Positions 16,823-35,026 of a DNA stretch of 64,000 bases are shown one piece after another (the first letter of the stretch is position 1; every line of letters starts with the position of its first letter). A program made the translations under genes and the position numbers. Below the pieces are notes generated by a model that was not told where the DNA came from, made no database searches, and saw only the letters and a program-made list of their open reading frames with translations. The stretch spans positions 119,062 to 183,061 of the forward strand of contig NZ_CP021649.1 in NCBI RefSeq assembly GCF_002176815.1, written 5' to 3'. This stretch comes from Acidovorax sp. T1 (GTDB lineage Bacteria > Pseudomonadota > Gammaproteobacteria > Burkholderiales > Burkholderiaceae_C).

Positions 16823-18414
16823 GGGGTCTCCTCGTTTTCAGTGCAATAAGTGACGGTACGAAAAGCTAGCACTGGCGCGGAGGTGGTGTTGGTAGATCGT
16901 TGATTTCATTGACTTTCCTGTTCACTTTCAAATCTGCGATTCGTGGCGTCAAACCGTGGTCGGTTTCATCCATTGGTGCCAGTTATCGATGCATTTGGCC
17001 GCGAAGGCAGGATTTGGTCAGCATAGCGGTCAACCGGGAAGCGAAACACACCCCGCAAGTTGATGCTCTCCAGCCTGGTGGGCGCAATCTTCCCGATCAG
17101 TTCCGGTGGAATGACCTGGCGGCGGTTCGACCAGCGATCCAGGACCGCCTGCATCTGTGAGGTATTCCACGCCATCACGATGTTGGCCATCAGGCTCAAC
17201 GCATCGGCCACAGCCTGCATTTCATCGACACGTTTGGCCTGCGCCGGGCTGATCCGGCCGGTATAAATGGCGCGCTTGAGGGCGTTAACAGCCTCGCCCC
17301 GATTGAGCACCCGGCGCAACTCGTTCCTGAAAGCGTCCTTGACAAAGTAGTCAGCCAAAAACGCCGTACGCAGCAACCGCCCCAATTGCACGCCAGCCTC
17401 ATAGATTGGATCGCCCTGGGCGGCAGAACCGAACCGCGCAAGAGCTGCCACCGCACTGGCATGTCCGCTCATGACCGAGGCTGCCAGGTGCACCAGACTA
17501 TCCCAATGCTTTTCGATCAAAGCGACGTCGACATTGGCTTCGCACACCGCAGCGATTTCTGCGGGCACTTTGGTGCCGCGTGGCACAAAGAGGTGGCGCT
17601 GTTTGAGTTCCTTCAACCGCGGGCAAAGATCAAAACCAAGCAAACGGGCATGTGACATGGCAAAGTCGGTGTAGCCATGGGTATCCACAGCAAGCTGGCT
17701 GGTCTCCAGCTTTTCTTGGCGGATGACACCTTCAATGGCCACGCTCGCCTGGCGCTCATTGAGCACAAAGGGCTGCGCATGGAAGATGCCCCACCGGTCT
17801 TTTACATGGGAGTAGATTCCAATGGAAGGTGTGTTGCGCCGAGGATCAAGCCGGGCTTGCCACACCCGTTTGGTGGTCTCCATGCTCATCATGTCAGAAG
17901 ATGCCAAATCGGACCGCCCCCAGGTGGCGGCAATCGGGTGTCGCTGCATGAATTCCAGCACAGCCTGGCAGGCCTGGCTCAGACGCCGTTCGTCCCGCGC
18001 CCAGCGCATGGCCTGGCGAATGCTGGTGGCAGACAATTGCGGAATCATGCGCGCGCATTCGACCGCAGTCAGACTGGTGCCGTGGGCCATGATGCCGGCA
18101 TAGACCATCAGCAGCTCGTCGGTAGAGCGCGGCTCACGTCCGAGCATGATCCAGCTAAAGCGCACCTGGGCGTCAACGGCCAGAATCACTTCCGGCAATT
18201 GAACCTCACCGATGCGGTGATCCAAAGCCGCGCGCAGCTTGGTCACTTCTGGGTCTTCGTCCTCTGCGGGCAATGGCGACAAATGGAGTTCATCATCCAC
18301 GCGCAGTACGCCACTGCGGGCTGCAGCGGCCACCGCATCGACACCGGCAGTTACTCTGGCCAGCAAAGGCTTCAAGAAAGTGGCAGCCTTGCTGGGTAAC
18401 GATAGACGGGCATA
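16823..18414 (-). mobile_element. IS1071 copy 1, left piece (tnpA 3' side)
   Basis: It starts with the IS1071 end GGGGTCTCCTCGTTTTCAGT and includes the about 110-base terminal repeat (16823-16932). It matches copy 2 up to base 18414, where the Tn4651-type element begins. With the right piece 49707-51318 it sums to 3,204 bases, the same length as the intact copy 2. Confidence 0.95.
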
Positions 18415-18438
18415 GGGGTAATCTCGGTTTTTGAGCAA
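16966..18438 (-). pseudogene. tnpA: IS1071 transposase, C-terminal fragment
   Basis: This frame reads the last 482 residues of the IS1071 transposase, identical to those of copy 2, preceded by eight codons that come from the inverted repeat of the inserted transposon. It retains the catalytic region (SSDMMSMETT, VDTHGYTDF and NRGEAVN) but lacks the N-terminal DNA-binding half, which lies 31 kb away at 49695-51173. It is unlikely to be functional, although copy 2 could supply transposase in trans. Confidence 0.95.
18410..18414. repeat. Target-site duplication GCATA, left
   Basis: GCATA here directly abuts the left inverted repeat of the 31-kb transposon, and GCATA at 49702-49706 abuts the right one. 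The intact IS1071 copy 2 has a single GCATA at the corresponding position, which proves a 5-bp duplication. Confidence 0.97.
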
Positions 18439-18475: not shown

Positions 18476-18820
18476 TCACTTAGCTCGACTCACGCGTTTG
18501 CTCGGAACCTTGAAGTTCTCTAGGGTGTGCCCTCGTTCAAGCGCTTCGTTCAGCCACGTTGGCCGTCGCCCGCGCCCCGCCCAGGTGTTGCCATTGCCGT
18601 CTTGGTAGACCGCCTGTAACTGTGGCTCCGTACTTCGCGTCTTAGCGTTTTCTTGAGCTGCTAACTTTGGCGCTTGATAGGGCTGATCAAACAGATCGCC
18701 GGGCATCAACTCGTATTGAGCAATGACCTTCTTCAAAAGAGGAATGATCTCCTCCGCGTCGTTGGCCTGGCTCATCGCCTCTTCCAGGCGTTTCCTCATT
18801 TGACTCAACGTCTTTGGCAC
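18476..18820 (-). CDS. H-NS family nucleoid protein
   Basis: The GTG at 18820 is preceded by AGAGAGG at a spacing of six, giving 114 residues; the frame is open further upstream. The N-terminal half is helical and would form the oligomerisation coiled coil (MRKRLEEAMSQANDAEEIIP). The C-terminal DNA-binding motif is YQDGNGNTWAGRGRRPTWL, the beta-proteobacterial version of the H-NS AT-hook-like loop. Such proteins silence horizontally acquired DNA. The gene lies about 60 bases from the left end of the transposon, downstream of the HNH gene on the same strand, and could silence the element's own cargo. Confidence 0.85.
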   Translation of the reverse strand: MPKTLSQMRKRLEEAMSQANDAEEIIPLLKKVIAQYELMPGDLFDQPYQAPKLAAQENAKTRSTEPQLQAVYQDGNGNTWAGRGRRPTWLNEALERGHTLENFKVPSKRVSRAK

Positions 18821-18934
18821 CGAACACCTCTCTTGGAGCGATTGGACCGCATCATAGAGGGCTAACCCACTGAGCGGCCTCGTAGCTGGCTGATCACGAT
18901 CTAGCGGCAACCGAGCTTCAAAAGCGAACTCCTA

Positions 18935-20482
18935 TCAATGCTGTACATCGAAAACCGTTTGGCTTGTGAAGTTGTCTGCCATTTCGATTCGCAGACGAAA
19001 GTCAATGCACTCCTTCTTTTTCTTCTTGCTCAGGATATGCAGTTTCACAGGCGAGTAATAGCTTGTGGTCGGAGGGACTTCGTATTGCTTCCCATAGATG
19101 GTGACCATGGATGCGGGTTCTTTCTGCTGCAGAACTGAAAACTCTCCGTTGCGCACGACCTCCATCAGTGACTTACCCCCGTCAGTACACGCGACAGTCA
19201 TCGTCGGTGAACCGGTGATCTGAGAGCGCTGGTAGGAGAGCTTGCCCTCAACGATATCGCTGACTCGCGCCAGGGCCAGATGATCGTCAGTGGAAATGCT
19301 CTCGAAAATATCGATCGGCGCACTTTTCCTGAGGTATCTAAGCACATTTCTGGCTCGTCTTGCGTAGTGAGCAAATGCGAGGGTCTCGTTCATCGCCTCT
19401 ATATGCTTTGGTATATGAAACTTCCCCGCTGCAGCTTGATTTCCATCGACTTCCAAGACGAACGTAACAGACGCGGATGGATCAAGAATTGCGTCAAGCA
19501 GGTTGATAAGGACGTCCAAGTAGGGAGGGTTGGCAGCCTCTTTTCCTTGCCACGCTTTTAAGTTGGTAGTCAGAGTCGATACCGAGTGAACATCATTGCG
19601 ATTCGTTGGGGTGAAAGCTAATTCCACGTCCAGAAGACCGCCACATCCAGCGCCTGCAAATCGGATTTGCTTGCGCCCAGCTGTTAGTTGACCACCAATG
19701 GTTTCAAAAATTGCCGGTTCGATCTGGGGCGCAAGTATCTTCAACACGGCTGGACGTGCCATCGGCATGATCGTTATCGATGCTAGGTCGGCATCTTTGT
19801 GCAGCACATCGAAGAGTTTTGATCCTTCAAACACGACCCCATCGAGGGGCAGCGTCGCTTCACGGCCCTCGTCAATGGACGCCTGAAGGCCCTTGCGCCA
19901 GAGATCAGCCGATTCTTGTGCAATCTTGATGGAAAAAGACACGGTCTCTTTCGCGCCCACGGTAATCGTTGTGTTGCCGCCCGAGTACGCTGTTGAAACA
20001 GTGAACCTCGGATCCACCGCTTCCAATTGATCGACCAAGGCTTTGTGCACGTTGCCTATGGCTTCTGGATAAAACCCAGGCGTTCGGGTGCCCATGGCCA
20101 TGGCCGCCATGCGATAGATATCCTTTTCATCGGGAAGCCGCTTGCCTTGCTCCATCAGAGCCCTTGCCTCAGCCGATGTTTTCCATGCTTTGAGCGTTTC
20201 TGCAGGGTACGAGTCGGGATCTCGGTCGATGATCGTCGAGCAGGTCTGGCATAGCCAGATGATGTTGCCAAAGCCGCGCCGGTCCTCTGCAGTCATTGCA
20301 GCGAGATAACGCGGCCCCCCAGGCGATGCCGCATGAATATGCGCGCCGACCCCCACATTGGAGAAGTCAACTTCGCCCACTGGCGCGGAGGTGGTGGCGC
20401 GGCAATCGGGATTGGAGCAACGACCTGCCGCCCGCTGGTAAGCCTGATTCTTGGTCGGTTTCGTGAAGTCGTCGCGTGCCAT
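18935..20482 (-). CDS. HNH-nuclease-domain protein of unknown function
   Basis: Starting at ATG 20482 gives 515 residues. Residues 1-100 hold an HNH-like zinc fold: CSNPDC, AHIHAASPGGPR, a GNIIWLC segment and CQTCSTIID. The remaining 400 residues match nothing I recognise and contain no membrane helix. The DNA between this start and tnpT is short, so the gene could be read from the tnpT side, although the IS21 insertion now lies in between. Being next to IetAS and Shedu in the same transposon, it is a candidate defence effector; this is inference from context. Confidence 0.7.
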   Translation of the reverse strand: MARDDFTKPTKNQAYQRAAGRCSNPDCRATTSAPVGEVDFSNVGVGAHIHAASPGGPRYLAAMTAEDRRGFGNIIWLCQTCSTIIDRDPDSYPAETLKAWKTSAEARALMEQGKRLPDEKDIYRMAAMAMGTRTPGFYPEAIGNVHKALVDQLEAVDPRFTVSTAYSGGNTTITVGAKETVSFSIKIAQESADLWRKGLQASIDEGREATLPLDGVVFEGSKLFDVLHKDADLASITIMPMARPAVLKILAPQIEPAIFETIGGQLTAGRKQIRFAGAGCGGLLDVELAFTPTNRNDVHSVSTLTTNLKAWQGKEAANPPYLDVLINLLDAILDPSASVTFVLEVDGNQAAAGKFHIPKHIEAMNETLAFAHYARRARNVLRYLRKSAPIDIFESISTDDHLALARVSDIVEGKLSYQRSQITGSPTMTVACTDGGKSLMEVVRNGEFSVLQQKEPASMVTIYGKQYEVPPTTSYYSPVKLHILSKKKKKECIDFRLRIEMADNFTSQTVFDVQH

Positions 20483-20626
20483 TAGATCGTCGCTAGTTTG
20501 TATGCAGATACTGTGTGGAGCTTTTTCGCCGACTGACGGCCGACGTGCAAGCAATCAATCCCCGATGGCCAGGTCAAATTCCCCCACCCTTGGCCACCCC
20601 AAATTCCCCCAGGCAGGACGGTCGGA

Positions 20627-21391
20627 TTATGACGACTCGGGTGTGATGGCGATGCGTGCAGCGGCCTCCTTGAGGCGGTAGCTCTTGCCCTCGAACTCCA
20701 GCATCGCGCAGCGGTGCATGAGGCGATCCAGGATGGTGCTGGCCATGGTGGCGTCGCCGAGGTATTTGCCCCAGTCCTGCACCACGCGGTTGGACGTGAT
20801 GAGAACAGCGCGGCGCAGCTTGTAGCGCTGGTGCACGATGGCCTGTAGGACTTCAGCGGCATGCTCGCTGATGCGTCTGGCCAGGAACAGGTCATCGAGG
20901 ACGAGCAGGTCCGGCGCGACCCAGTCCTTGAGCAGCTCGGTGCGCTCTGCCGTAGTGGCCAGCGCGTAACGGGCGAACTCGGTGTCGGCTTCCAGGTAAC
21001 GCACGTCATAGCCCTGCAGCGTGGCCTGGTAGGCCACGGCCTTGGCCACATGGCTCTTGCCGGTGCCCGGCTTGCCGATGATCAGCGCGTTGGCCCCCTC
21101 GCCGATGAACTTCAGGGTGTGCAACTCGAAGCAGGCGCTGCGCGGCAGCTTCGGGTTGAAACGCCAGTCGAAGTCAGCCAGCGAGGGGCGCTCATCCAGA
21201 CCCGAGCGCTTGAAGCGGCGCTCGGTCAGGCGAGAGCGCCGGCGGTCCAGCTCGTCTTGCAGCATGGCGGCGAAGGTCTCCAGGAAAGGCTGCTGGGCGG
21301 CCTGGGCCTGCATCACGCGGGTGGACAGGGTCTCGGCGATGCCGGACAGGCGCAGCTCGCGCAGCGCGCGTTCGATCTCGATCATGTTCAT
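20627..21391 (-). CDS. istB: IstB, IS21 helper ATPase (copy A)
   Basis: A 254-residue AAA+ ATPase. The Walker A motif is GKPGTGKSH at about residue 103 and the Walker B motif is LLVLDDLFLA. The N-terminal LRLSGIAETLSTR segment is typical of IstB. It activates the IstA transposase and selects target DNA. Its start overlaps the istA stop by four bases (ATGA), so the two are translationally coupled. The protein is identical to that of copy B. Confidence 0.95.
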   Translation of the reverse strand: MNMIEIERALRELRLSGIAETLSTRVMQAQAAQQPFLETFAAMLQDELDRRRSRLTERRFKRSGLDERPSLADFDWRFNPKLPRSACFELHTLKFIGEGANALIIGKPGTGKSHVAKAVAYQATLQGYDVRYLEADTEFARYALATTAERTELLKDWVAPDLLVLDDLFLARRISEHAAEVLQAIVHQRYKLRRAVLITSNRVVQDWGKYLGDATMASTILDRLMHRCAMLEFEGKSYRLKEAAARIAITPESS

Positions 21392-23007
21392 GGCTGAACT
21401 CCCGGTGCGTTGGTGGTGTTGTTGGTGGTGGTGGTGGTGGTGGTGGTGGTGTTTGCCGTGGCGGCGGCGAGCGCGAAGAGATCGCTGTACTCCTCAGCGT
21501 CTCGGATGAGCTCATGCTGCTGCGTCAGCGCGTGGGCACCGGCGGCGGGTGCTTCGCCGCAGGTAGCCTCGATGGCCGCCATCGCCTGGGCAAAGAGGGC
21601 TTCGGTCAGCGCCAGCACGCGCTTGTAGCTGTAGACCCCTTGCTCCAGGGCCTGGGCGCAGGCGGCATTGATGCAGTGCGCCGGGTAACGGCGCATGAGT
21701 CCCACAATGCCCCAGAGCTTGCGCTGCCCGACACGACCCTCGATGGCAAAGAGCAGCTCACACAGCCGGCTGGCGTGCTCACCAATCTCGCCGGCCTGAC
21801 GCAGGATCAGGCGGGTCTCGCGAGACGGATTGAACACCCGCTCCTCCATGGGCAGAATCACCGTGCCGGGACGCTCGGCCTTGGCGTGGGTGCGCAGCAA
21901 GGCACGGGTGTGCATGTCACGAATCTCGATGCGCTGGGCGTAGATGCGCACCAACACCTTGGAGCCGATGTTCGCCGGGCGAGCGGCGTAGCTGCTGTGA
22001 TCCACCCGCACACAGCTGTCGTCGCAGACGGTGCGCACCGCCTCGTCGAAATACTGCATTCCCAGCACTGGCAGGGGTTTGAGGTGGCTGCGCTCTTCCT
22101 CGAACATGGCCTGCACCTGGCGTCGCTCGGTGCCGTGGATGCGCTTGGATGCCCAGCTCTTCTCCCAGTGCGCCAGGAACTCGTTCTGGGCCTCGATGGA
22201 CTCAAAGCGCCGGCCCTTCAAGGCCGTGGCCTGGGTATGGCCGATGGCATGCTCCACCGTGCCCTTGCGGTTGGGGTCTCGCACCCGCGCCGGGTCGGCC
22301 ACCACGCCGTAGTGCGCCAGGGCGGCGGCGTACACCGGGTTGAGATCGGGCTCGTACAGGTCGGGCTTGAGGACGCCTTCCTTCAGATTGTCCAGCACCA
22401 CGTACTGGGGGCAGCCCCCGAAGTACCGCAGGGCCCGCTCGTGCAGCTCGGCCCAGATCTGCTGGCTGGACTTCCAGACCACGCACCGGAAACTGGCACG
22501 GGAATACCGCAAGGTGGCCACGAACAGGCGGGGCTTGCGGTACCGGTCGCTGCCGGGCACGCGGGTGGGCGCGCCCTCGCCGTAGTCCACCTGCATCTCC
22601 TCGCCGGGCAGGAAGGACAGGCGATCGAACTGCTCGGGCTCCTTGTGCCGCAACTTTGCACAGAAGCGTTTGACCGAGTTGTACTGGCCATCAAAGCCGT
22701 GCTGGTCGACCAGGTCCTGGTAGATGGCCGTGGCGTTTCGCTTCAGCCGCAGCTGGGCTTCGATGAACTCGCGCCAGGGTTCGCACAGGGAGGTGGCCAC
22801 CGGCCCAGGAGCCGGTGGCCAGGGTGGGGGAATTTGACCTGCCGAGCCGGTGGCCACCCCGGGGGAATTTGACTGCAGTTGCTCCAGCCAGCGCTGGTGG
22901 TAGCTCCTGACCGTCTTGCGGTCGATGCCCGTGATGCGGGCGATCTCGCGTTGCGATGTGTTGCGCTCCAGCAGTGTCTCTATGGTGGCGCGTTGGTTGG
23001 ACTTCAA
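21388..23007 (-). CDS. istA: IstA, IS21 transposase (copy A)
   Basis: The TTG at 23007 with AAGGAG eight bases upstream gives 539 residues; the frame is open to 23049. It begins with a helix-turn-helix (SQREIARITGIDRKTVRSYH) and continues with the DDE core: QVDYGEG, VVLDNLKEG and TVEHAIGH. The linker between these (about residues 45-80) is Pro/Gly-rich and is coded by copies of the terminal repeat motif. The C-terminus has nine consecutive Thr from a GGT/ACC tract at 21424-21450. Identical to copy B. Confidence 0.94.
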   Translation of the reverse strand: MKSNQRATIETLLERNTSQREIARITGIDRKTVRSYHQRWLEQLQSNSPGVATGSAGQIPPPWPPAPGPVATSLCEPWREFIEAQLRLKRNATAIYQDLVDQHGFDGQYNSVKRFCAKLRHKEPEQFDRLSFLPGEEMQVDYGEGAPTRVPGSDRYRKPRLFVATLRYSRASFRCVVWKSSQQIWAELHERALRYFGGCPQYVVLDNLKEGVLKPDLYEPDLNPVYAAALAHYGVVADPARVRDPNRKGTVEHAIGHTQATALKGRRFESIEAQNEFLAHWEKSWASKRIHGTERRQVQAMFEEERSHLKPLPVLGMQYFDEAVRTVCDDSCVRVDHSSYAARPANIGSKVLVRIYAQRIEIRDMHTRALLRTHAKAERPGTVILPMEERVFNPSRETRLILRQAGEIGEHASRLCELLFAIEGRVGQRKLWGIVGLMRRYPAHCINAACAQALEQGVYSYKRVLALTEALFAQAMAAIEATCGEAPAAGAHALTQQHELIRDAEEYSDLFALAAATANTTTTTTTTTNNTTNAPGVQP

Positions 23008-23161
23008 GACATTCACTCCTTGGCCTTCCCTCGGGGAAGACTGGATCAATGTCCTGCCAACAGGTGCCGACGACGCCGGCGTTAAACCCCTATCCCCGAT
23101 CAGTTCAGGTGGGGGAGTTTGAGGTGGCCATAGACGGGGGAATTTGGGTGGCCATCAGGGA

Positions 23162-24160
23162 TCAATGGCCGTCCATCGGTTTTTTCTTGCGAGCGGGCCT
23201 GGGCGGTGGTTGAAACTGCGCCACCATTGCGCGCAGGGTGTCAGCTTCCGCTTTGTGCTGCGCCACTGCCTGCAGTGCCTGCTGTAGCTCAACGCCTTGC
23301 AGTTGGTTCACGCGGGCGCTCTCGGTCAGCGAAGCCCGTGCGCTCTCCAGGTCTGCGGCCAATCGTGTCTGGGCTGCGTTGGCCTCCAGGACCTTGGCAT
23401 GGTGATCACGCTCCACTTCTGCGAACTTGCCCCGTAGCTGCTCCAGTTGCTTGTCAACCTGCGTTCGAGCGGTGCGCTCCCTATCAATTTCACGAAGCGC
23501 GCGGCGCTCGGCCTCGGCCGCACGGGAGGCCGCCTCATCGATGGCCGCACGCCCCTTGTCAAGTTCAGCACTGAAATGCTGCCTGCTCTTCGATTGCTCC
23601 TGCTTCAGCTCATCCACCTGCCTGGACAGAGCCTCACCTCTCGCTGTGCTCGCAGCGTGCGCACGCCGTTCTTGCTCAAGCTCTGCAGCAAGGGCCTGAG
23701 CTCGGGTCTCCAGTTCGGTGACTATGGTCTGTGCGGTCTGTATCTGGGTCTCCAGGACGGCGCTTCGCTGCAGAGCCTCCTGCAGGCCTGCCTGTGCACT
23801 CTGGGCCTCTGCGTGTGCCTCGACGCGCAGGACAGCTAGCTCCTCGCGCGCCAACTCCGTTGCCTGGGTCCACAGCACGCTGACCGCCTGGCCTGCAGCT
23901 TGTTTCAACGCGTCCGGAAGGTCCGGGTGGTCAATTTCCACCCGAGCTTTGCCGCGTAGGTCCTCCCAAAATTTGGCCAATGCTTCGGCCGGCGCGCTCA
24001 TGGAGCCTTTTCGCACGTGCTGATACAGCTTGCTCGCGGTGGGCGTGATGCCGTACCGGAAAAACAGCAACGCGCACACCTCGCGGTACAGCGCTTTCGT
24101 ATCGCTGAAACGCTCCCGCAGGGCTTCAACTTCGGCTTGGATTTCGGATTCTTCGCTCAT
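23162..24160 (-). CDS. tnpT: TnpT-like coiled-coil DNA-binding protein (KfrA-type N-terminus)
   Basis: A 332-residue protein starting at ATG 24160. Residues 1-100 resemble the KfrA/plasmid replication-region DNA-binding domain (TDTKALYREV-like segment; ITPTASKLYQHVRKGSMSAP). Residues of about 115-310 are a long Glu/Ala/Arg-rich coiled coil, and the tail is basic (RPARKKKPMDGH). This make-up and the divergent position beside a tyrosine recombinase match TnpT of Tn4651-type transposons, which assists TnpS in cointegrate resolution. The IS21 copy A insertion falls exactly on the stop codon, and the duplicated bases recreate it, so the protein is intact. Confidence 0.82.
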   Translation of the reverse strand: MSEESEIQAEVEALRERFSDTKALYREVCALLFFRYGITPTASKLYQHVRKGSMSAPAEALAKFWEDLRGKARVEIDHPDLPDALKQAAGQAVSVLWTQATELAREELAVLRVEAHAEAQSAQAGLQEALQRSAVLETQIQTAQTIVTELETRAQALAAELEQERRAHAASTARGEALSRQVDELKQEQSKSRQHFSAELDKGRAAIDEAASRAAEAERRALREIDRERTARTQVDKQLEQLRGKFAEVERDHHAKVLEANAAQTRLAADLESARASLTESARVNQLQGVELQQALQAVAQHKAEADTLRAMVAQFQPPPRPARKKKPMDGH

Positions 24161-24250
24161 TTTTAAATAATACAACGTATAACGTATGAATCAGTGATTT
24201 AATTTCCTATCTCTGGACATAATTATTCTAATGTCCATAAAATTTGGCTC
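24161..24250. promoter_or_regulatory. Putative rst resolution site with dyad core and divergent promoters
   Basis: The 90 bases between tnpT and tnpS are AT-rich. They contain the dyad TGGACAT (24214-24220), ten spacer bases and ATGTCCA (24231-24237), the layout of a tyrosine-recombinase core site. In Tn4651 the site-specific resolution site lies between tnpS and tnpT, so I infer the same here. The repeated AACGTATAACGTATGAA (24175-24190) could bind TnpT. Confidence 0.65.
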
Positions 24251-25450
24251 ATGAGCAGTTTGATCGTCGCACCAGCCGTTTTGGCGCATATTGAGCCTTT
24301 GGAGGGCTTGGTGCTACCCCTTCACCTGTCAGGCGAGCGGGGGCGCAATCGGGGGCAGGGTCTACCCCAAGTCGCAGCCAATGACGACCGTACTGCGGTT
24401 TTGGCCTGGCTCGCGCGCTACAGGGATTCCCCGGCCACGCTGGCCAGCTACCGCAAGGAGGCGGAAAGGCTGTTGCTCTGGTGCGTGCACCAGCACGGTA
24501 AGGCCCTGTCCGATCTGACCCATGAGGACTTCCTCGCATACGAGAGCTTCCTTGGAGACCCACAGCCGGCCGACCGCTGGGTCATGCAAGTCGCCCAGAA
24601 GGCACCCAGGTCCTCGCCCAACTGGCGTCCTTTCGCCAAGCCGCTGGACCGGCAGAGCCAGCGCCAAGCACTCTCGATTCTTAACGGCCTGTTCAACTGG
24701 CTGGTTCAGGCGGGGTACTTGGCGGGAAATCCCCTTGCCCTTAGGCGTCGCAAGACAGTCGTTGGGGCGACTAAGACGAGCCGCTTCCTGCCGCACGAAC
24801 ATTGGGCCCAAGTGCGTACAACGATTCAGATGCTTCCTACGGCAACACCGCGCTTAGCATCACAGGCGGCTCGCTACCGCTGGCTGTTCTCATTGCTGTA
24901 CATCGCAGGACTTCGGATTTCAGAGGTTTGCGATCACACCATGGGGGACTTTTACTGGCGAAGGGGCGCCGATGGCAAAGAGCGTTGGTGGCTTGCAGTG
25001 CGCGGCAAGGGAGAAAAAGATCGGAGCATTCCTGCCACGGATGAGTTGGTCTTGGAACTGATGAGATACCGCAGCGCGAACGGGTTACCGCCACTTCCGC
25101 GCGAGGGGGACCCGCTGCCTCTACTCTTGCCGCTGATTGGAGGAGCTAAACCTATGGGACGTAGTGCCGTCCACGAACTCATCAAGAACGTGTTTCGCGA
25201 GACCGCGACGCGCTTGCGCGCCCTCGGACCCGATCACGAGGCGACTGCGGCTCATGTGGAGAAAGCCTCTGCGCACTGGATGCGGCATACAGCAGGCACC
25301 CATCAGAGTGACAACATGGATTTGAAGGCTGTGCGCGACAACCTGGGCCATGCCAACATTGCCACTACAAGCATCTACATCCACACGGAAGACGATAAAC
25401 GGCACGACCAGACCTCTAAAGAGCACAAGCTCGGGTGGATGCACCCGTGA
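24251..25450 (+). CDS. tnpS: TnpS-like tyrosine recombinase (cointegrate resolvase)
   Basis: A 399-residue phage-integrase-family protein. The N-terminal SAM-like core-binding domain (about 50-170) is followed by the catalytic domain. Catalytic residues are visible: Arg in AGLRISEVCDH, Lys in AVRGKGEKDRSIP, the H-x-x-R box HWMRHTAGTHQ, His/Trp-box LGHANIATTS and the nucleophile Tyr in SIYIHTEDD. It would resolve transposition cointegrates at the site just upstream, together with TnpT. It is divergent from tnpT and not an integron integrase, as it lacks the extra IntI patch. Confidence 0.85.
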   Translation: MSSLIVAPAVLAHIEPLEGLVLPLHLSGERGRNRGQGLPQVAANDDRTAVLAWLARYRDSPATLASYRKEAERLLLWCVHQHGKALSDLTHEDFLAYESFLGDPQPADRWVMQVAQKAPRSSPNWRPFAKPLDRQSQRQALSILNGLFNWLVQAGYLAGNPLALRRRKTVVGATKTSRFLPHEHWAQVRTTIQMLPTATPRLASQAARYRWLFSLLYIAGLRISEVCDHTMGDFYWRRGADGKERWWLAVRGKGEKDRSIPATDELVLELMRYRSANGLPPLPREGDPLPLLLPLIGGAKPMGRSAVHELIKNVFRETATRLRALGPDHEATAAHVEKASAHWMRHTAGTHQSDNMDLKAVRDNLGHANIATTSIYIHTEDDKRHDQTSKEHKLGWMHP

Positions 25451-25578
25451 GATTCACTCGCTTACATGAATGCGGATCATTTTTTTCATATGGCGAATGA
25501 AAATGTCTCTGTGCGTAGCAGATGGCGCCCATGGTGATTCAATTTTCCACTAAACTGAATCATTAACGATGTTGACCC

Positions 25579-26742
25579 GTGGAACACCTTTCTGAAGTCC
25601 TCAAGATCCTGGATGGCGCCCTGAAGTCCAACCAAAGCATGGCTGCGAACTATGCGGGCCTTCTGGCAGACAAGCTCGAACGCAGTGGCAGCCGTCGCGA
25701 AGCGTCCGCCATCCGTGAGCGTTTAGCGCGTGTGCCCGCTGCGCTCATTTCAGCGCAGCGCGGCGCACAAGCCCCTGGGTCGTTGGGCGGACTTCCTGTG
25801 GATGGCGACAGTCGCTTGAACACGGTAGATGTCAGTCGTCCTTCCGTCGGCGAAGTCCAGTTGCTGCTGCCAAGTGGACTTCAAGCAAGACTGCAGGAAT
25901 TCCTTTCGTCGGTTTTGCACCATGACAAGCTGCAGGCGGCCGGGGTTTCGCAGCCCCATCGTTTGGTGATGCATGGCCCTCCTGGTACTGGCAAAACCCA
26001 GACAGCCAGGTGGATCGCTGCCCAACTGCATCTGCCCCTTCTGACGGTACGTTGCGATACCTTGATCAGCAGTTTACTGGGGCAGACCAGCCGCAACCTT
26101 CGACGCGTATTCGACTACGCGCAGGAGGTTCCTTGCGTCCTTTTCCTTGATGAGTTCGACGCGCTAGCGACCGCACGCGGCAACGAGCGTGATGTGGGTG
26201 AGCTTCAGCGCGTGGTGATTGCCCTGTTGCAAAACATTGATGCGCTACCTGACGAGACCATTCTCTTGGCTGCGACCAATCACGATCAGCTCCTCGACTA
26301 CGCCATCTGGAGACGCTTTACGTTCCGGCTCGCCATGCCGATGCCGGATCAGGAATTGCGAGAGCAGCTATGGGCTCAGTTCCTCGGAGCTTATGTACCT
26401 TCCCAGTTGAGCGTTGACCAACTGGCTCAGCGCTCGTCAGGACTTTCAGGCGCCGCCATTGAGCAAGTATGTTTGGATGCCAAGCGGGCGGCTATTCTTG
26501 CCGCTAAACCGCAGGTCGAGGAGACAGAGGTGTTTCGCCGGCTTGGATTGATGATGGCGATGATGGAAGGTCAGCGCCTGCATAGTTTGAAATCGGAGAT
26601 CCAATGGCTGCGCCGTTGGCATCCCAGGTTCTTTTCTCAGAGGGTACTGGCCGCTGCTTACGGGGTGTCGCAGCGACAGATAAGAAATGCAATCGAGGAG
26701 GAGGATGGCCATGGCGACCAAGGAGATGAAAGCGCCACTTAG
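25579..26742 (+). CDS. ietA: IetA-like AAA+ ATPase (IetAS defence/stability pair)
   Basis: A 387-residue protein with a GTG start. Residues 1-120 are variable; the AAA+ core has Walker A GPPGTGKT (about residue 137), Walker B VLFLDEFDAL, sensor-1 LLAATNH and the arginine finger region IWRRFTFRL. It resembles FtsH/proteasomal-type ATPases that handle proteins. It overlaps the following subtilase gene by about 30 bases. The AAA-subtilase pair matches IetA-IetS, described on Agrobacterium Ti plasmids as a stability (toxin-antitoxin) module and later reported as a phage-defence system. Function here is inferred from that match. Confidence 0.82.
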   Translation: MEHLSEVLKILDGALKSNQSMAANYAGLLADKLERSGSRREASAIRERLARVPAALISAQRGAQAPGSLGGLPVDGDSRLNTVDVSRPSVGEVQLLLPSGLQARLQEFLSSVLHHDKLQAAGVSQPHRLVMHGPPGTGKTQTARWIAAQLHLPLLTVRCDTLISSLLGQTSRNLRRVFDYAQEVPCVLFLDEFDALATARGNERDVGELQRVVIALLQNIDALPDETILLAATNHDQLLDYAIWRRFTFRLAMPMPDQELREQLWAQFLGAYVPSQLSVDQLAQRSSGLSGAAIEQVCLDAKRAAILAAKPQVEETEVFRRLGLMMAMMEGQRLHSLKSEIQWLRRWHPRFFSQRVLAAAYGVSQRQIRNAIEEEDGHGDQGDESAT

Positions 26743-28966
26743 CGCGCAAAGTACCAATCCGTTTCATCGGATTCCCTTTCAAAATGCGGATCTTTCCGCA
26801 CCAGAAAACGGCGGTGGCAGCCTCCGGGAACTGGTCCCCGTAACAGCAGAGTACCGCGAAGCGCTCGTGGGCACATTGGAAAATGCTGCCAGTGCGCTAC
26901 GCCCGGAGATTGAGCGCTATCCGCACTCGCCAGGGGTGCTGATTCTCAAGTTGCGAGACACCGCGATCGCAAAATCCCACCGACCAAATACTCTGGCAGC
27001 AGAAGCTGGTCTCCAACCTGCCGGTGTCGGACGTATCGAGGAGATGCTGGTTGCTGCAAACGCAGCTAGCGTCCAGGCACTCGCCCGGGTTATCCGTACC
27101 CGCGAGACGCAGCAGATCAAGGCCAACCTCTCCGCGATTGAGAAAATTCACGCTTGGGACAAAACGCGCCGCATGGTGGGCACGGTTGCAGCATTGCGCG
27201 CTCGTGGTCGAGTGTTGCTGAGCCTATTTCGCTACCATGCAGCGGACGCTACGGCACGCAACGTGGATGCGTTGCGCGCCGTTCTGCTGCAACACAACAT
27301 ACATTCAGTGGAGATCCCTCAGCGTTGGGGCCCTCCTGTCATGCGCGTTGACCTGGCTGCAATCGGTGATCAGGCGATGGAAGCGCTGAGCATGTTTCCG
27401 GGTCTGAGATCCATCTTTCCCGAACCGAGAATACATACCAGTGCGGCTGCCTTCGGCATTGGTCCTGGTCCGCTGCCGCAGCCGCCAGCCGGTGTCGAGC
27501 ATCCTGTCGTGGGCGTCTTCGATACCGGGACTGCCGCCAGCGCGACGAGTCTGAGGCCGTGGATCGCTTCCACGACTTCGTACGTGCTCCCTCCGGACAC
27601 AGACTATGTACATGGAACGGCTGTCGCGTCACTGGTAGCTGGCGCCAAGATCCTCAACGGGGACCATGCATGGCTTCCAACCACAAGGTGCCAAGTGCAC
27701 GACACATGCGGATTGGAGGCGGCTGGAGGCAACACGACGGATCTGATAGTTCGCCTTGCGGAAGCGGTTCGCAATGCGCCTCATGTGAAGGTATGGAACC
27801 TCTCCCTGGGAGGTGCTCAGATTGGGGACCATGAGTTCAGCTACTTTGCGCAACAATTGGATGCGCTGAGCGATGAACATCAGGTCCTCTTCGTGGTCGC
27901 AGCTGGGAACTATACAGGCTTGCCTCGCCGAGGCTGGCCAGTCGCCGACCTGCATCTTGAGGACCGGCTGAGCAGTCCGGGCGACTCCGTGCGCGCCCTC
28001 ACGGTCGGTGCCGTTGCGCATCTCGATTCGCCCGGTGCGATGGTGGCAGCAGGCCATCCTGCGCCTTACTCCCGTCGGGGCCCGGGGCCTGTATTTACAC
28101 CCAAACCGGATTTAGTCCACGCTGGAGGTGGTGTGCATGAACAGTGGGACGCTGGACCGAGCAGCTTGCAAATGCTCCACCCTTTTGACGCGCTGTACGG
28201 CAGTTTCGGAACAAGCTTCGCCACGCCGATTGTGAGTTCGGTGGCCGGTCACGTGTGGCAAAGCCTCGATGGAAATCCCGACGTAGCAGTCGCTCCTCAC
28301 ATGGTGAAGGCACTGCTGATCCATGCTGCGCGCTTGGCTTCTCCAGACTATGGCGCTCTAGAAAGGCGCTACTATGGGTGCGGTATTCCGCAAGACGCGT
28401 TGTCCGCCCTTTATGACAGCGATGACTGCTTCACGATGATGTTTGAAGCGTTGGTGGTGCCTGGCTTCAAATGGCGCAAAACTCCTTATCCCATCCCCGC
28501 CTCGTTGATGCACAACGGAAAGCTCAGGGCCGAGGTGATCATCACTGCTGCCTACTCGCCACCGTTGGACCCCAATGCCGGGGCCGAGTACGTACGTGCC
28601 AATGTCAACGTGAGTTTTGGTGTGCTGGATGGCTCGCGGATTTCCGGAAAGGTTCCCATGGAGGGTGAAGCGGGGACCACTGGTTACGAAGCCGCTCAAA
28701 TCGAGCACGGCGGCAAATGGTCTCCGGTCAAACTGCACCGCAAGAAATTCCCGCAAGGGGTGGCAGGTGATCAGTGGGCCATCCAACTAGACGCGTTACT
28801 GCGGGCTAACGAGCCACCTTTGGCCGAACCCTTGAATGTCGCCCTTGTCGTAAGCCTACGTTCACTCGACGCCAACCGCCAAGTTCATGCCGACGGGGTG
28901 CGTGCTCTGGTTCAATCCAATTGGGTCCGCCAGCATTTGCCTGTCAGAGTTCCCGTTCAGGTGTGA
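26711..28966 (+). CDS. ietS: IetS-like S8 subtilisin-family protease
   Basis: ATG 26711 follows GAGGAGGAGG at a good distance, giving 751 residues; ATGs at 26687 and 26705 are also in frame. There is no signal peptide, so it acts in the cytoplasm. The catalytic triad is complete: Asp in VVGVFDTG, His in YVHGTAVASLVAG and Ser in FGTSFATPIVSS, with the oxyanion Asn in VVAAGNYTG. The N-terminal 250 residues and the C-terminal 200 are family-specific. In the IetAS pair this is the toxic protease controlled by the ATPase. The triad argues it is active. Confidence 0.85.
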   Translation: MATKEMKAPLSAQSTNPFHRIPFQNADLSAPENGGGSLRELVPVTAEYREALVGTLENAASALRPEIERYPHSPGVLILKLRDTAIAKSHRPNTLAAEAGLQPAGVGRIEEMLVAANAASVQALARVIRTRETQQIKANLSAIEKIHAWDKTRRMVGTVAALRARGRVLLSLFRYHAADATARNVDALRAVLLQHNIHSVEIPQRWGPPVMRVDLAAIGDQAMEALSMFPGLRSIFPEPRIHTSAAAFGIGPGPLPQPPAGVEHPVVGVFDTGTAASATSLRPWIASTTSYVLPPDTDYVHGTAVASLVAGAKILNGDHAWLPTTRCQVHDTCGLEAAGGNTTDLIVRLAEAVRNAPHVKVWNLSLGGAQIGDHEFSYFAQQLDALSDEHQVLFVVAAGNYTGLPRRGWPVADLHLEDRLSSPGDSVRALTVGAVAHLDSPGAMVAAGHPAPYSRRGPGPVFTPKPDLVHAGGGVHEQWDAGPSSLQMLHPFDALYGSFGTSFATPIVSSVAGHVWQSLDGNPDVAVAPHMVKALLIHAARLASPDYGALERRYYGCGIPQDALSALYDSDDCFTMMFEALVVPGFKWRKTPYPIPASLMHNGKLRAEVIITAAYSPPLDPNAGAEYVRANVNVSFGVLDGSRISGKVPMEGEAGTTGYEAAQIEHGGKWSPVKLHRKKFPQGVAGDQWAIQLDALLRANEPPLAEPLNVALVVSLRSLDANRQVHADGVRALVQSNWVRQHLPVRVPVQV

Positions 28967-29053
28967 CCAGTCGGCTGCGCATTGAGGGCATGGTGTATTC
29001 GGGCGGCTTTGTACCGCGATCACTCGCCAGGATCGAGCACTGAACGCGAAGCC

Positions 29054-30166
29054 CTAAAACGGTACGTCGTCCAGAGTTGGCTGCAGATGCTGCTGCAGGT
29101 ATTCAAGCTTGACCAGCAGTTCGTCAAAGGTGATCACCTCCACATCCTTACAGGCGTTGCGGAACACCTCAAAGCAACGCAGTTCTTTCTCTTCTACTGG
29201 CCGGCGTCCAGCGAGCACTATGCATCTGACGACATCTGCTCGGGAGGAACGCAAGGTCGGATTGTCAAAGGCGTGTTCCTTCCATCGCATGCGCAACTCG
29301 CTTTGCTGATGCAACACTTGCGTGATAGCGCCGCTCAGCTCCGAGTCTGGTCCAAATACATTCGGTGGCCTATAGGCTCGGGAACGCATCAAGGGAGCAT
29401 CTGGAGTTTTGATTTCCACAATGGCGAGCGCCAGGCCTTGCTCTCTGAATAGAAAGTCACCAATCTGTGCTCCCGTTCCCGCAAGCGTAGATCCTTGGGC
29501 GTGAAACTGGGTGTGAGACAGCTCGACGGGCCGAGCGAAAGCCAGGCTCAGGACGAACTTGTGTTTCTCAAAGAAGCGTTGCCACTGTGCTTCCTTGAGG
29601 CTCTTGTTGAGCATTTCCCGGTACTGCCCAATCATGGCGGTCAGCGTAGCTCTTTCGATTTCCGCGTGCAGTCTCAGTAACTCAGAAGGCGCCTCGGCAG
29701 CCAGCACATCGACCTGCGTTTGTACGGATTGAATGCTAGCGCGCCGCTCCGCGCGCTCGCGATACGCGGTCTGAACTGCGTTCTCTCTTCGTACCTGCAC
29801 CAATGGCGGTGCTTTGCGCTCAATCCGCTGGAACCTGTCAGGGGCGATCTCTGCGAGCACCTGGTCATGTACCAAGCTGTGCTTGGAATGCTGAATGAGT
29901 TGCCGTCCCCTAGTTTTAGTCCGGTTGAAGGCCCTGCGCAGGCTATCCACTTTGTTCTGGTCGATGAACACCGTCCGTCCGTCCAAGCGTAGTCGGATCT
30001 TTTTGCCGATCACAAGGACGTCAGCCTGCGGTATCAACGATAACGACTGCCAAACCGAATCAAGATCCTTGATGAGGCCAAGCCCTTCACTGGGTTGATC
30101 AAAAATGTTGGATGCCAGTCTCAACGCCACGTGCGCCGCCACGTCTTGTGGATCGTTTGGCAACGT
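29054..30166 (-). pseudogene. sduA: Shedu (DUF4263) nuclease, C-terminal part, split by IS21
   Basis: These 370 residues follow directly, in frame, from the 107-residue piece at 32772-33092 once IS21 copy B and one GTCA are removed. The C-terminal domain has the Shedu PD-(D/E)xK-like core: WQRFFEKHKFVLSLAF, then GDFLFREQGLALAIVEIKTP with the acidic and E-x-K residues, and SELSGAITQVLHQ. Shedu proteins are single-gene phage-defence nucleases. This half keeps the nuclease domain but lacks the native start; an IS-borne codon could start a shortened product (the frame runs open to 30187 inside the IS end). Convergent with ietS. Confidence 0.85.
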
Positions 30167-30323
30167 GTCACCCTGATGGCCACCCAAATTCCCCCGTCTA
30201 TGGCCACCTCAAACTCCCCCACCTGAACTGATCGGGGATAGGGGTTTAACGCCGGCGTCGTCGGCACCTGTTGGCAGGACATTGATCCAGTCTTCCCCGA
30301 GGGAAGGCCAAGGAGTGAATGTC

Positions 30324-31943
30324 TTGAAGTCCAACCAACGCGCCACCATAGAGACACTGCTGGAGCGCAACACATCGCAACGCGAGATCGCCCGCATCAC
30401 GGGCATCGACCGCAAGACGGTCAGGAGCTACCACCAGCGCTGGCTGGAGCAACTGCAGTCAAATTCCCCCGGGGTGGCCACCGGCTCGGCAGGTCAAATT
30501 CCCCCACCCTGGCCACCGGCTCCTGGGCCGGTGGCCACCTCCCTGTGCGAACCCTGGCGCGAGTTCATCGAAGCCCAGCTGCGGCTGAAGCGAAACGCCA
30601 CGGCCATCTACCAGGACCTGGTCGACCAGCACGGCTTTGATGGCCAGTACAACTCGGTCAAACGCTTCTGTGCAAAGTTGCGGCACAAGGAGCCCGAGCA
30701 GTTCGATCGCCTGTCCTTCCTGCCCGGCGAGGAGATGCAGGTGGACTACGGCGAGGGCGCGCCCACCCGCGTGCCCGGCAGCGACCGGTACCGCAAGCCC
30801 CGCCTGTTCGTGGCCACCTTGCGGTATTCCCGTGCCAGTTTCCGGTGCGTGGTCTGGAAGTCCAGCCAGCAGATCTGGGCCGAGCTGCACGAGCGGGCCC
30901 TGCGGTACTTCGGGGGCTGCCCCCAGTACGTGGTGCTGGACAATCTGAAGGAAGGCGTCCTCAAGCCCGACCTGTACGAGCCCGATCTCAACCCGGTGTA
31001 CGCCGCCGCCCTGGCGCACTACGGCGTGGTGGCCGACCCGGCGCGGGTGCGAGACCCCAACCGCAAGGGCACGGTGGAGCATGCCATCGGCCATACCCAG
31101 GCCACGGCCTTGAAGGGCCGGCGCTTTGAGTCCATCGAGGCCCAGAACGAGTTCCTGGCGCACTGGGAGAAGAGCTGGGCATCCAAGCGCATCCACGGCA
31201 CCGAGCGACGCCAGGTGCAGGCCATGTTCGAGGAAGAGCGCAGCCACCTCAAACCCCTGCCAGTGCTGGGAATGCAGTATTTCGACGAGGCGGTGCGCAC
31301 CGTCTGCGACGACAGCTGTGTGCGGGTGGATCACAGCAGCTACGCCGCTCGCCCGGCGAACATCGGCTCCAAGGTGTTGGTGCGCATCTACGCCCAGCGC
31401 ATCGAGATTCGTGACATGCACACCCGTGCCTTGCTGCGCACCCACGCCAAGGCCGAGCGTCCCGGCACGGTGATTCTGCCCATGGAGGAGCGGGTGTTCA
31501 ATCCGTCTCGCGAGACCCGCCTGATCCTGCGTCAGGCCGGCGAGATTGGTGAGCACGCCAGCCGGCTGTGTGAGCTGCTCTTTGCCATCGAGGGTCGTGT
31601 CGGGCAGCGCAAGCTCTGGGGCATTGTGGGACTCATGCGCCGTTACCCGGCGCACTGCATCAATGCCGCCTGCGCCCAGGCCCTGGAGCAAGGGGTCTAC
31701 AGCTACAAGCGCGTGCTGGCGCTGACCGAAGCCCTCTTTGCCCAGGCGATGGCGGCCATCGAGGCTACCTGCGGCGAAGCACCCGCCGCCGGTGCCCACG
31801 CGCTGACGCAGCAGCATGAGCTCATCCGAGACGCTGAGGAGTACAGCGATCTCTTCGCGCTCGCCGCCGCCACGGCAAACACCACCACCACCACCACCAC
31901 CACCACCAACAACACCACCAACGCACCGGGAGTTCAGCCATGA
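30324..31943 (+). CDS. istA: IstA, IS21 transposase (copy B)
   Basis: Same protein as at 21388-23007. The TTG start with AAGGAG eight bases upstream is preferred; the frame is open back to 30282. DDE residues lie in QVDYGEG, VVLDNLKEG and TVEHAIGH. The Thr tract is coded by nine ACC codons at 31881-31907. The linker carries terminal-repeat-like DNA at 30459-30519. Confidence 0.94.
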   Translation: MKSNQRATIETLLERNTSQREIARITGIDRKTVRSYHQRWLEQLQSNSPGVATGSAGQIPPPWPPAPGPVATSLCEPWREFIEAQLRLKRNATAIYQDLVDQHGFDGQYNSVKRFCAKLRHKEPEQFDRLSFLPGEEMQVDYGEGAPTRVPGSDRYRKPRLFVATLRYSRASFRCVVWKSSQQIWAELHERALRYFGGCPQYVVLDNLKEGVLKPDLYEPDLNPVYAAALAHYGVVADPARVRDPNRKGTVEHAIGHTQATALKGRRFESIEAQNEFLAHWEKSWASKRIHGTERRQVQAMFEEERSHLKPLPVLGMQYFDEAVRTVCDDSCVRVDHSSYAARPANIGSKVLVRIYAQRIEIRDMHTRALLRTHAKAERPGTVILPMEERVFNPSRETRLILRQAGEIGEHASRLCELLFAIEGRVGQRKLWGIVGLMRRYPAHCINAACAQALEQGVYSYKRVLALTEALFAQAMAAIEATCGEAPAAGAHALTQQHELIRDAEEYSDLFALAAATANTTTTTTTTTNNTTNAPGVQP

Positions 31944-32704
31944 ACATGATCGAGATCGAACGCGCGCTGCGCGAGCTGCGCCTGTCCGGCATCGCCGAGA
32001 CCCTGTCCACCCGCGTGATGCAGGCCCAGGCCGCCCAGCAGCCTTTCCTGGAGACCTTCGCCGCCATGCTGCAAGACGAGCTGGACCGCCGGCGCTCTCG
32101 CCTGACCGAGCGCCGCTTCAAGCGCTCGGGTCTGGATGAGCGCCCCTCGCTGGCTGACTTCGACTGGCGTTTCAACCCGAAGCTGCCGCGCAGCGCCTGC
32201 TTCGAGTTGCACACCCTGAAGTTCATCGGCGAGGGGGCCAACGCGCTGATCATCGGCAAGCCGGGCACCGGCAAGAGCCATGTGGCCAAGGCCGTGGCCT
32301 ACCAGGCCACGCTGCAGGGCTATGACGTGCGTTACCTGGAAGCCGACACCGAGTTCGCCCGTTACGCGCTGGCCACTACGGCAGAGCGCACCGAGCTGCT
32401 CAAGGACTGGGTCGCGCCGGACCTGCTCGTCCTCGATGACCTGTTCCTGGCCAGACGCATCAGCGAGCATGCCGCTGAAGTCCTACAGGCCATCGTGCAC
32501 CAGCGCTACAAGCTGCGCCGCGCTGTTCTCATCACGTCCAACCGCGTGGTGCAGGACTGGGGCAAATACCTCGGCGACGCCACCATGGCCAGCACCATCC
32601 TGGATCGCCTCATGCACCGCTGCGCGATGCTGGAGTTCGAGGGCAAGAGCTACCGCCTCAAGGAGGCCGCTGCACGCATCGCCATCACACCCGAGTCGTC
32701 ATAA
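31940..32704 (+). CDS. istB: IstB, IS21 helper ATPase (copy B)
   Basis: 254 residues, identical to the copy A protein: Walker A GKPGTGKSH and Walker B LLVLDDLFLA. It overlaps istA by four bases (ATGA). Intact, so this copy should be able to support its own and the other copy's transposition. Confidence 0.95.
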   Translation: MNMIEIERALRELRLSGIAETLSTRVMQAQAAQQPFLETFAAMLQDELDRRRSRLTERRFKRSGLDERPSLADFDWRFNPKLPRSACFELHTLKFIGEGANALIIGKPGTGKSHVAKAVAYQATLQGYDVRYLEADTEFARYALATTAERTELLKDWVAPDLLVLDDLFLARRISEHAAEVLQAIVHQRYKLRRAVLITSNRVVQDWGKYLGDATMASTILDRLMHRCAMLEFEGKSYRLKEAAARIAITPESS

Positions 32705-32771
32705 TCCGACCGTCCTGCCTGGGGGAATTTGGGGTGGCCAAGGGTGGGGGAATTTGACCTGGCCATCGGGG

Positions 32772-33092
32772 GTCATCCGCGTTATCCTCGTAAATCACGG
32801 TCTTGAAACGACCATGTTTCGGTGTGAGATAGCGTTTTGTGTGCGGGTTCGCATGTATTGGATACATGACGATGCTGTTTGGAAAGATCGTTGCCAACAA
32901 GGGCCATTCAGACTCAGGGCGCTCTTGCCAAAGAAGAATATCTCGGTCGATCAGCTCGAACGTCTTGAGGTACAGCCTCTTAGCCGGCTCACCTTTTTCA
33001 GTCGCGTCTTGAACACTGAATTGAGCCTCCATGACTTCGTTACCACTCAGAATCGCAGGACCTCCAGCGTCCTCGCTCGTATCTGTATCCAT
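32772..33092 (-). pseudogene. sduA: Shedu gene, N-terminal part, split by IS21
   Basis: The ATG at 33092 has GGGAGG eight bases upstream, marking the true start of the Shedu gene. The 107 codons run to the IS21 copy B boundary and continue in frame at 30166, giving a reconstructed protein of 477 residues. The region (LYLKTFELIDRDILLW, then FPNSIVMYPIHANPHTKRYL) is the variable N-terminal sensor part of Shedu proteins. Downstream the frame runs into the IS end and would add a tail. The gene is divergent from the czcI-like gene. Confidence 0.85.
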
Positions 33093-33733: not shown

Positions 33734-35026
33734 GTGCGTTTTGTTATTTCCGGGCTTGCGGTGCGTTGTGCCGCAGGCTGTGCTTTGAGCTGCGCCCTCG
33801 TTGGCGCTGCGATTGCGCAGTCAAATACCGCCCCATCACTTTCAGCCACGGCATCGCCCGTGGCTCCAACACTGGCACTGGCCGTGGAAGCTGCATGGCA
33901 GCGCGCCACGCAGGCAAGAGAAGCCGAAGGCCAGACACACCGGGCTGCTGCCGAACGGGTGGCGATCTCCAGCCTATGGGCGGCCCCCCCAGCACTGGAG
34001 CTTTCTTACCGGGACGACCGCTGGCAAACCTCGGCGGGACGCAGGGAGGCCGAGGCCGGCCTGGCTTGGCCGCTGTGGATACCTGGACAGCGCAATGCAC
34101 GCGGCGCTGTTGTCGATGCCGACGTGGAGCTGTCCCAAGCTGCTGTTCAAGCGGGGCGCCTGCATTTCGCGGGCCTGGTGCGGGAAGCCGCCTGGGGCAT
34201 TGCCGCGCAAAAGGCCGAGTCCGACTTGGCGGACGCCCAAGTGCGATCTCTGCAGGAGATCTCCGACGACGTACGGCGCCGTTTCAAAGCGGGTGATCTG
34301 GCCCACGCGGATGCGCTTGCCGCTCAATCCGAGGCTCTGGCTGCGCAATCTGCACAGTTGGCTGCACGCCAGCGCCTAAGCGCCAGCCAGTCGCAATGGA
34401 TGACCCTGACGGGCATAGCCCTGGCGCCTGATCTCACGTCTGTCCCGGTTTCTGATGGTGCCGCAGTTTCACCAGGCGGGGCGCACTTCGCCGTTGAAAC
34501 GCACCCCGATGCGCGTGTCGCTGCACTGACGGTTGAGCGCGCTCGCAAGCGGCTGGACGTGGTGGCCGCGACGCGGAGCGACCCTCCAGAGCTTTTGCTG
34601 CGCATCCGGCAAGACACTCCCGGGCGGGGTGAGTCGGCTCAAAACAGCATCGGCGTCGGCGTGCGCATTCCCCTGGGCACAGCGAGCCGCAATCAGCCGC
34701 TGCAAGCTGCCGCACTGAGTGAGCTGGATGTAGCGCTGACCACGAAACAGCGAACTGAGGAGCGGCTGGCTGCTGACGCAGCGATGGCGCGGGCTGCGGT
34801 GCACACGGCAGAGCAGCAACTGGAAGCGGAGCGCCAGCGCTCGGCACTCCTGCGGGAGCGTGCCACGCTCATTGATCGGTCTTTCAAAGCTGGAGAAACA
34901 CCGCTACCGGAGTTGTTGCGCGCGCTCGCTGCAGCTACCCAGGCCGACACCAGCTTCGCGCGCCAGCAAGTGGCTGTAGGCCTGGCCCGCGCCCGCCTCC
35001 AGCAATCTCTCGGAATCCTTCCATGA
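33734..35026 (+). CDS. CzcC-like outer-membrane efflux protein
   Basis: A 430-residue TolC-family protein with a GTG start and AGGAA upstream. The signal peptide (VRFVISGLAVRCAAGCALSCALVGAAIA) is followed by two long helical repeats, e.g. RRRFKAGDLAHADALAAQSEA and RSFKAGETPLPELLRALAAAT, as in CzcC/CnrC. It supplies the outer-membrane channel for the pump encoded downstream. The stop overlaps the next gene by four bases. Confidence 0.85.
   Translation: MRFVISGLAVRCAAGCALSCALVGAAIAQSNTAPSLSATASPVAPTLALAVEAAWQRATQAREAEGQTHRAAAERVAISSLWAAPPALELSYRDDRWQTSAGRREAEAGLAWPLWIPGQRNARGAVVDADVELSQAAVQAGRLHFAGLVREAAWGIAAQKAESDLADAQVRSLQEISDDVRRRFKAGDLAHADALAAQSEALAAQSAQLAARQRLSASQSQWMTLTGIALAPDLTSVPVSDGAAVSPGGAHFAVETHPDARVAALTVERARKRLDVVAATRSDPPELLLRIRQDTPGRGESAQNSIGVGVRIPLGTASRNQPLQAAALSELDVALTTKQRTEERLAADAAMARAAVHTAEQQLEAERQRSALLRERATLIDRSFKAGETPLPELLRALAAATQADTSFARQQVAVGLARARLQQSLGILP

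Follow-up and report, generated by a model that had tools for sequence, protein, structure and literature searches.

A Tn3-family transposon with IetAS, Shedu and an HNH-nuclease protein alongside metal-efflux genes in Acidovorax sp. T1

Organization of the Transposon

The stretch of DNA analyzed here, referred to as the window, comprises 64,000 nucleotides of Acidovorax sp. T1 (G000:C2:119062-183061) and belongs to a plasmid-like contig of 183 kb (C2). It contains a Tn3-family transposon spanning positions 18415-49701 (31287 bp, or approximately 26.1 kb without its two IS21 copies), whose cargo includes an IetAS gene pair, a Shedu gene (sduA), a gene for an HNH-nuclease protein (hnh) and metal-resistance genes (Table 1). 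The family assignment is based on a transposase scoring above the Tn3 cut-off, terminal inverted repeats, and 5-bp target duplications (GCATA around the window copy and GATCA around a second, chromosomal copy). The repeats are of the GGGG type (GGGGTA[A/G]TCTCGGTTT..., 27 of 38 positions identical), and the termini start with GGGGTAATCTCGGTTT and GGGGTAGTCTCGGTTT. GCATA is found at 18410-18414 and 49702-49706 and occurs once in the matching place of an intact element located elsewhere in the window (60251-63456), which we take to be IS1071-like on account of its size and long terminal repeats. The insertion target was another such IS1071-like element, now split into the two flanks of the transposon. 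Since these flanks are its halves, a 490-residue Tn3 transposase (16966-18438) belongs to the split element and not to the transposon, whose own TnpA shares 33% identity with the IS1071-like transposase.

A second full copy of the transposon, with the same start and end bases, is present in the chromosome (G000:C1:1906958-1935652), where it is flanked on both sides by its own duplication, GATCA. Outside insertion sequence (IS) elements the two copies are 100% identical, and both IS21 insertions of the window copy are missing from the chromosomal one. The genome thus contains two independent insertions of the transposon; given the two copies, their separate duplications and their identity, the defence genes are mobilised together with the metal genes. 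The proposal of the first-pass annotation, made from the letters of the window, that defence genes share one Tn3 transposon with RND efflux and chromate genes is therefore borne out by the mapped ends, the duplication and the second full copy.

The resolution module is of the TnpS/TnpT (Tn4651-like) type, with divergent tnpT and tnpS genes, an arrangement also described in PMC7157771, and a conserved palindromic site between them. The palindrome core (GACAT-N10-ATGTC) was found in all nine aligned loci and the full form (GGACAT...ATGTCC) in seven, and this region is probably the rst site.

Table 1. Features of the transposon and its flanks (window positions; values joined by > are score and cut-off)
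Feature	Position	Strand	Evidence or remark
IS1071-like fragment	16823-18414	-	16823-18415 100% identical to 60251-61843 of intact element
H-NS-like protein, extreme left end of transposon	18476-18910	-	Pfam Histone_HNS, E 7e-14
hnh	18935-20482	-	515 aa from internal ATG; 539 aa from TTG 20554
IS21 copy 1, between tnpT and hnh	20560-23160	-	IstA NCBIfam IS21 273 > 160; empty site in chromosomal copy
tnpT, resolution accessory protein (KfrA_N domain)	23162-24175	-	Pfam KfrA_N, E 3e-16
Intergenic region of tnpT and tnpS with putative rst resolution site	24161-24250		Palindrome GGACAT-N10-ATGTCC at 24215-24236
tnpS, tyrosine recombinase	24251-25450	+	Pfam Phage_integrase, E 1.5e-17
ietA, AAA ATPase	25579-26742	+	NCBIfam IteA, 570 bits vs cut-off 510; Walker A and B motifs
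ietS, S8 protease (subtilase)	26687-28966	+	NCBIfam IteS, 1058 bits vs cut-off 900; subtilase D, H, S triad motifs
sduA, C-terminal part with nuclease domain	29054-30170	-	Pfam SduA_C (DUF4263), E 2e-22; PADLOC SduA positions 104-476 of 480
IS21 copy 2, inside sduA	30171-32771	+	Duplication GTCA
sduA, N-terminal part	32772-33092	-	About 107 codons if ATG at 33092 is the start (assumed); PADLOC SduA positions 12-104
Metal efflux operon: OEP, small protein, membrane fusion protein, CusA/CzcA-family RND pump	33734-39979	+	Pfam OEP, HlyD, ACR_tran; pump NCBIfam TIGR00914 742 > 701
EamA transporter	40485-41540		Pfam; within block 40485-45954, which has other open reading frames too
Sod/rhodanese protein	42819-43739		Pfam
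ChrA, chromate efflux	43765-44967		Pfam; NCBIfam TIGR00937 404 > 172
ChrB	44992-45954		Pfam
tnpA, the transposon's own transposase, 986 aa	46632-49592	-	NCBIfam Tn3, 614 bits > cut-off 500
Second fragment of the same split IS1071-like element	49702-51320	-	100% identical to 61838-63456

IetAS and Shedu

The ietA and ietS open reading frames (ORFs) adjoin and overlap at 26687-26742. Both proteins exceed the cut-offs of the NCBI curated equivalog models NF042959/NF042956 (named 'IteA/IteS'), and the PADLOC IetA/IetS profiles agree; the Walker A/B and subtilase D, H and S motifs are retained. The second part of the Shedu gene encodes a DUF4263/SduA_C nuclease domain (Pfam 80 bits over a cut-off of 27; PADLOC SduA 544 bits) with a D..EIK motif as in PD-(D/E)XK nucleases. 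Both the AAA-ATPase/subtilase pair and the DUF4263 protein therefore lie inside the IetAS and Shedu families by Pfam, PADLOC and NCBIfam, as had been supposed from the letters, with the reservation that the Shedu gene is not whole. In the window copy it is split by IS21 copy 2, inside which the 377-residue sduA ORF begins. The chromosomal sduA is whole at this site but is interrupted by a different IS21, with 91.7% identity, at the position corresponding to 29746-29754, whereas the frame is uninterrupted in Paenacidovorax caeni. Each transposon copy has thus lost Shedu through an event of its own, which leaves IetAS as the sole plausibly working known defence system in the transposon.

Apart from this, identity to P. 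caeni (L028, L189) drops from 99.96% to approximately 94% at the site of IS21 copy 2 (30168/32773) and is back at 100% from bin 38372 onward, so that the 94% segment is a replaced block; its left border coincides with the IS21 site, yet the chromosomal copy, free of this IS, has the same hybrid sequence.

The HNH Protein

According to fold searches, the HNH protein consists of a Cap5-type HNH nuclease domain and an uncharacterised C-terminal part of approximately 380 residues, for which no convincing relative of known structure was found in these searches; SAVED was not among the matches listed for the C-terminal model. PADLOC SAVED_HNH models cover only residues 18-150 (539-aa numbering), and no CD-NTase was present among the transposon proteins scanned with PADLOC, the efflux proteins having been compared with Pfam only and some small ORFs left unscanned. 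The PADLOC candidate PDC-M68 was rejected as the identity of hnh: M68A covers only 107 of 253 profile positions, no M68B partner occurs in the scanned transposon proteins, and a single M68B was found among 132 neighbours of distant homologues.

A genome scan for this family, in which 80 of 409 confirmed loci were kept, yielded four close loci (L025-L028), including a 100% identical protein in P. caeni R-24608 (L028). In all seven close copies seen with their context hnh is linked to tnpT, six times directly and once at 7 kb. The two genes have the same orientation and are 75 bp apart in three of the measured IS-free copies (L025, L028 and the one in the chromosome), and hnh keeps its place after tnpT while the cargo beyond tnpS varies. 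No TnpS or TnpT was detected in the flanks examined at the 76 other, distant loci. In L148, on an Acinetobacter plasmid (NZ_CP125670.1), a distant HNH homologue immediately follows cueR within a cluster of copper/heavy-metal resistance genes.

Listing of the ORFs near 19 of the longer distant matches gave 179, of which 132, from 14 loci, were scanned (some short or overlapping ORFs excluded). They matched 115 PADLOC families at E <= 1e-10 (the first 25 displayed), many of which are probably accounted for by one reverse-transcriptase ORF. Among the matches listed, the best E was <= 1e-50 in eight family groups (ThsB1, reverse transcriptases, PRTase_III-A, PD-T7-5, PDC-S60, PDC-M68B, PDC-S35 and PDC-S03), some of which may represent one ORF. 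In Pfam the same ORFs were mostly housekeeping, with a few TIR, RES, AAA_15/21 and DarT-associated domains. As a control, 132 of 139 ORFs listed at arbitrary positions in 14 relatives were scanned and matched seven PADLOC families, one below 1e-50, although this comparison is rough since the control consists of Burkholderiales-type relatives and the HNH loci come from mixed taxa. The first-pass annotation had counted a 515-residue HNH protein in a defence island between the resolution genes and the metal operons. Such a protein is present and ietAS and sduA do lie in that interval, but hnh is situated on the far side of tnpT/tnpS, and nothing shows that it is a defence system; what points that way is restricted to the Cap5-type domain and the PADLOC-rich neighbours of distant members relative to the rough control.

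Occurrence of IetAS beside TnpS in Other Genomes

In a sample of 399 genomes, IetS (E <= 1e-25) was present in 12 and TnpS (E <= 1e-70) in 26, and both were present in 6 compared to 0.8 expected (Fisher P 3e-5, kinship ignored). After removal of our own genome, in which IetS is present twice, and P. caeni, TnpS still occurred in 4 of 10 IetS genomes (P 0.0017, kinship again ignored). IetS and TnpS lie within about 4 kb of each other in 4 of the 12: our own genome (both copies), P. caeni (G270), G362 and G402; on separate contigs they were found in G295 and G302. The G362 proteins are only 51% (IetS) and 50% (TnpS) identical to those of the window, with the same order tnpS-ietA-ietS. G402 (L191, G402:C1:880000-899999) has a distant TnpS/TnpT pair; its IetA and IetS, located on the tnpT side, belong to another PADLOC subfamily, and a PDC-S51 candidate is close by. 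IetAS and TnpS are also linked in G010, which is outside the sample, and pieces of IetA/IetS were found at 2 of 20 further TnpT loci (G362 and G214), where only the genes of the window were looked for. IetAS is located beside TnpS also in two diverged lineages.

Interpretation and Alternative Explanations

The reading we consider likely, and well supported in its combination of defence and metal genes, is that of one replicative Tn3-family transposon with a TnpS/TnpT/rst module and a joint cargo of intact IetAS, Shedu, an HNH-nuclease protein and metal efflux. Several observations weigh against it or narrow it. Shedu is broken in both copies, and an IS21 lies between hnh and tnpT in the window copy. 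Six of the 12 IetS genomes lack TnpS at the threshold used, so that IetAS is not tied to this transposon type; likewise, of 14 loci inspected whose TnpT is about 70% identical or more, 7 have no hnh next to tnpT, and hence the gene is not obligatory there. A different origin of the cargo might be considered because two 2601-bp IS21 copies, 100% identical and in opposite orientation, bracket 23161-30170 (tnpT-tnpS-ietAS-sduA), as would an IS21-flanked composite segment that brought in the defence genes. This is highly improbable, considering that the chromosomal copy and P. caeni carry these genes in the same order yet lack both IS21 insertions, and that the target duplications, read from the sequence as ATCAAT and GTCA, differ, which indicates separate insertions.

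Whether the defence genes still protect their host is a related issue. That IetAS and Shedu are passive relics is unlikely: the breaks in sduA, the IetS fragments near TnpS in G214 and the G362 IetS (L230, G362:C20, 335-3823), which has an apparent interruption of approximately 1.2 kb near its C-terminus, are in keeping with decay, whereas ietA and ietS are open, 99.5-100% identical among our own genome, P. caeni and G010, and retain their catalytic motifs. Chance is a slightly favoured explanation for the double loss of Shedu, with sduA as a merely expendable target of an IS21 active in this genome. Three IS21-type insertions are distributed across the two transposon copies and a further IS21 is located nearby in the chromosome, and a coincidence of this kind would not be rare if any gene were counted as target (0.1-0.2, a rough estimate and not computed), while for sduA taken alone the probability that at least two of three insertions hit it is approximately 0.009 (uniform insertion on 26 kb, uncorrected for the choice of gene). 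Selection behind the double loss is thus suggestive only. It is possible, although below an even chance, that hnh is not a phage defence gene but belongs to a maintenance module of the transposon itself, serving addiction, the control of cointegrates or the exclusion of competing elements, in parallel to the toxin-antitoxin pairs at the res sites of Tn3 elements. Its constant, closely spaced position after tnpT agrees with this, as do such pairs in 39 of 190 Tn3-family elements, mostly adjoining the resolvase gene (PMC7157771). By contrast, none of the 76 other HNH-family loci has TnpS or TnpT in the flanks examined, neighbours of distant members match more PADLOC families than the rough control, and an antitoxin-like partner gene was not identified, no systematic search having been made for one.

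For the defence-plus-metal transposon, a mechanism may be outlined in which IetAS would guard the host during phage infection by regulated proteolysis, the AAA+ ATPase controlling the subtilase. The HNH protein could be a one-gene effector whose C-terminal part would sense an unknown trigger and license the Cap5-like nuclease, and metal exposure would select the whole unit. With phage-defence genes and metal-resistance genes joined on one mobile Tn3 element, metal pollution could make hosts more resistant to phages, and this linkage gives reasonable grounds for the earlier suggestion that immunity may be spread by metal selection. A more far-reaching combination is rather improbable, namely that a Tn3 lineage took up a Cap5-type HNH nuclease bearing a novel sensor part and linked it to its resolution accessory gene (tnpT-hnh), that IetAS was recruited beside TnpS repeatedly, that the element in this way defends both host and itself, and that two copies make Shedu, the second nuclease system, intolerable, leading to its independent inactivation in each.

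Other Features of the Replicon

The contig C2 has a RepA-type gene (G000:C2:43800-44489, PF10134, 298 bits, over the cut-off) with one internal TAG; the sole relaxase match on it is below the cut-off, and the genome's VirB4-type match lies on C3. H-NS-like genes near tnpT also occur in L143 and L186, and the H-NS-like protein perhaps silences cargo. An additional efflux operon, judged by ORF appearance, is located outside the transposon at 8463-14572, to the left of the split IS1071-like element.

Comparison with Known Systems

Three points are new: Shedu is present twice and was damaged independently in each copy, tnpT is paired with hnh, whose product joins a nuclease to an uncharacterised part, and the IetAS-TnpS linkage recurs. 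The first two are of most interest. Two differently broken Shedu copies by an intact IetAS amount to a natural experiment on the cost or compatibility of stacked defence systems. The tnpT-hnh pairing offers a nuclease candidate that can be tested and broadens the idea of Tn3 resolution modules with their own security genes.

Compared to the family defined in NCBIfam, the IetAS described here is an ordinary member, with two adjoining genes for an AAA ATPase and an S8 protease above the equivalog cut-offs, and differs only in that it is carried by a Tn3 transposon, where it adjoins a TnpS/TnpT resolution module. SduA matches the PADLOC profile nearly end to end once both pieces are counted and differs from other Shedu in being split by IS21 in each of the genome's two transposon copies. 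With the CBASS effector Cap5 (HNH plus SAVED; 8fmf, 7rwk) the HNH protein shares the HNH domain, while a SAVED match at its C-terminus and an accompanying nucleotide cyclase among the PADLOC-scanned transposon proteins were not seen.

Defence cargo is established for Tn7-like transposons, 26% of which carry previously described innate systems according to PMC8649781; immune systems as cargo are thus shared, whereas the transposon family differs. For Tn3 elements, no paper on defence cargo was found in a literature search at the level of listings. There is also a likeness to the Tn3 elements with toxin-antitoxin pairs in PMC7157771, in which, as here, an extra gene is retained by the resolvase genes as other cargo changes. 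The term 'HNH' is absent from the main text of that report, and its discussion counts just one TnpS/TnpT element that has a toxin-antitoxin pair, a second being named earlier in the text. Relative to those elements, the transposon of Acidovorax sp. T1 differs in that a nuclease protein is encoded on the side of tnpT and a defence pair on that of tnpS.

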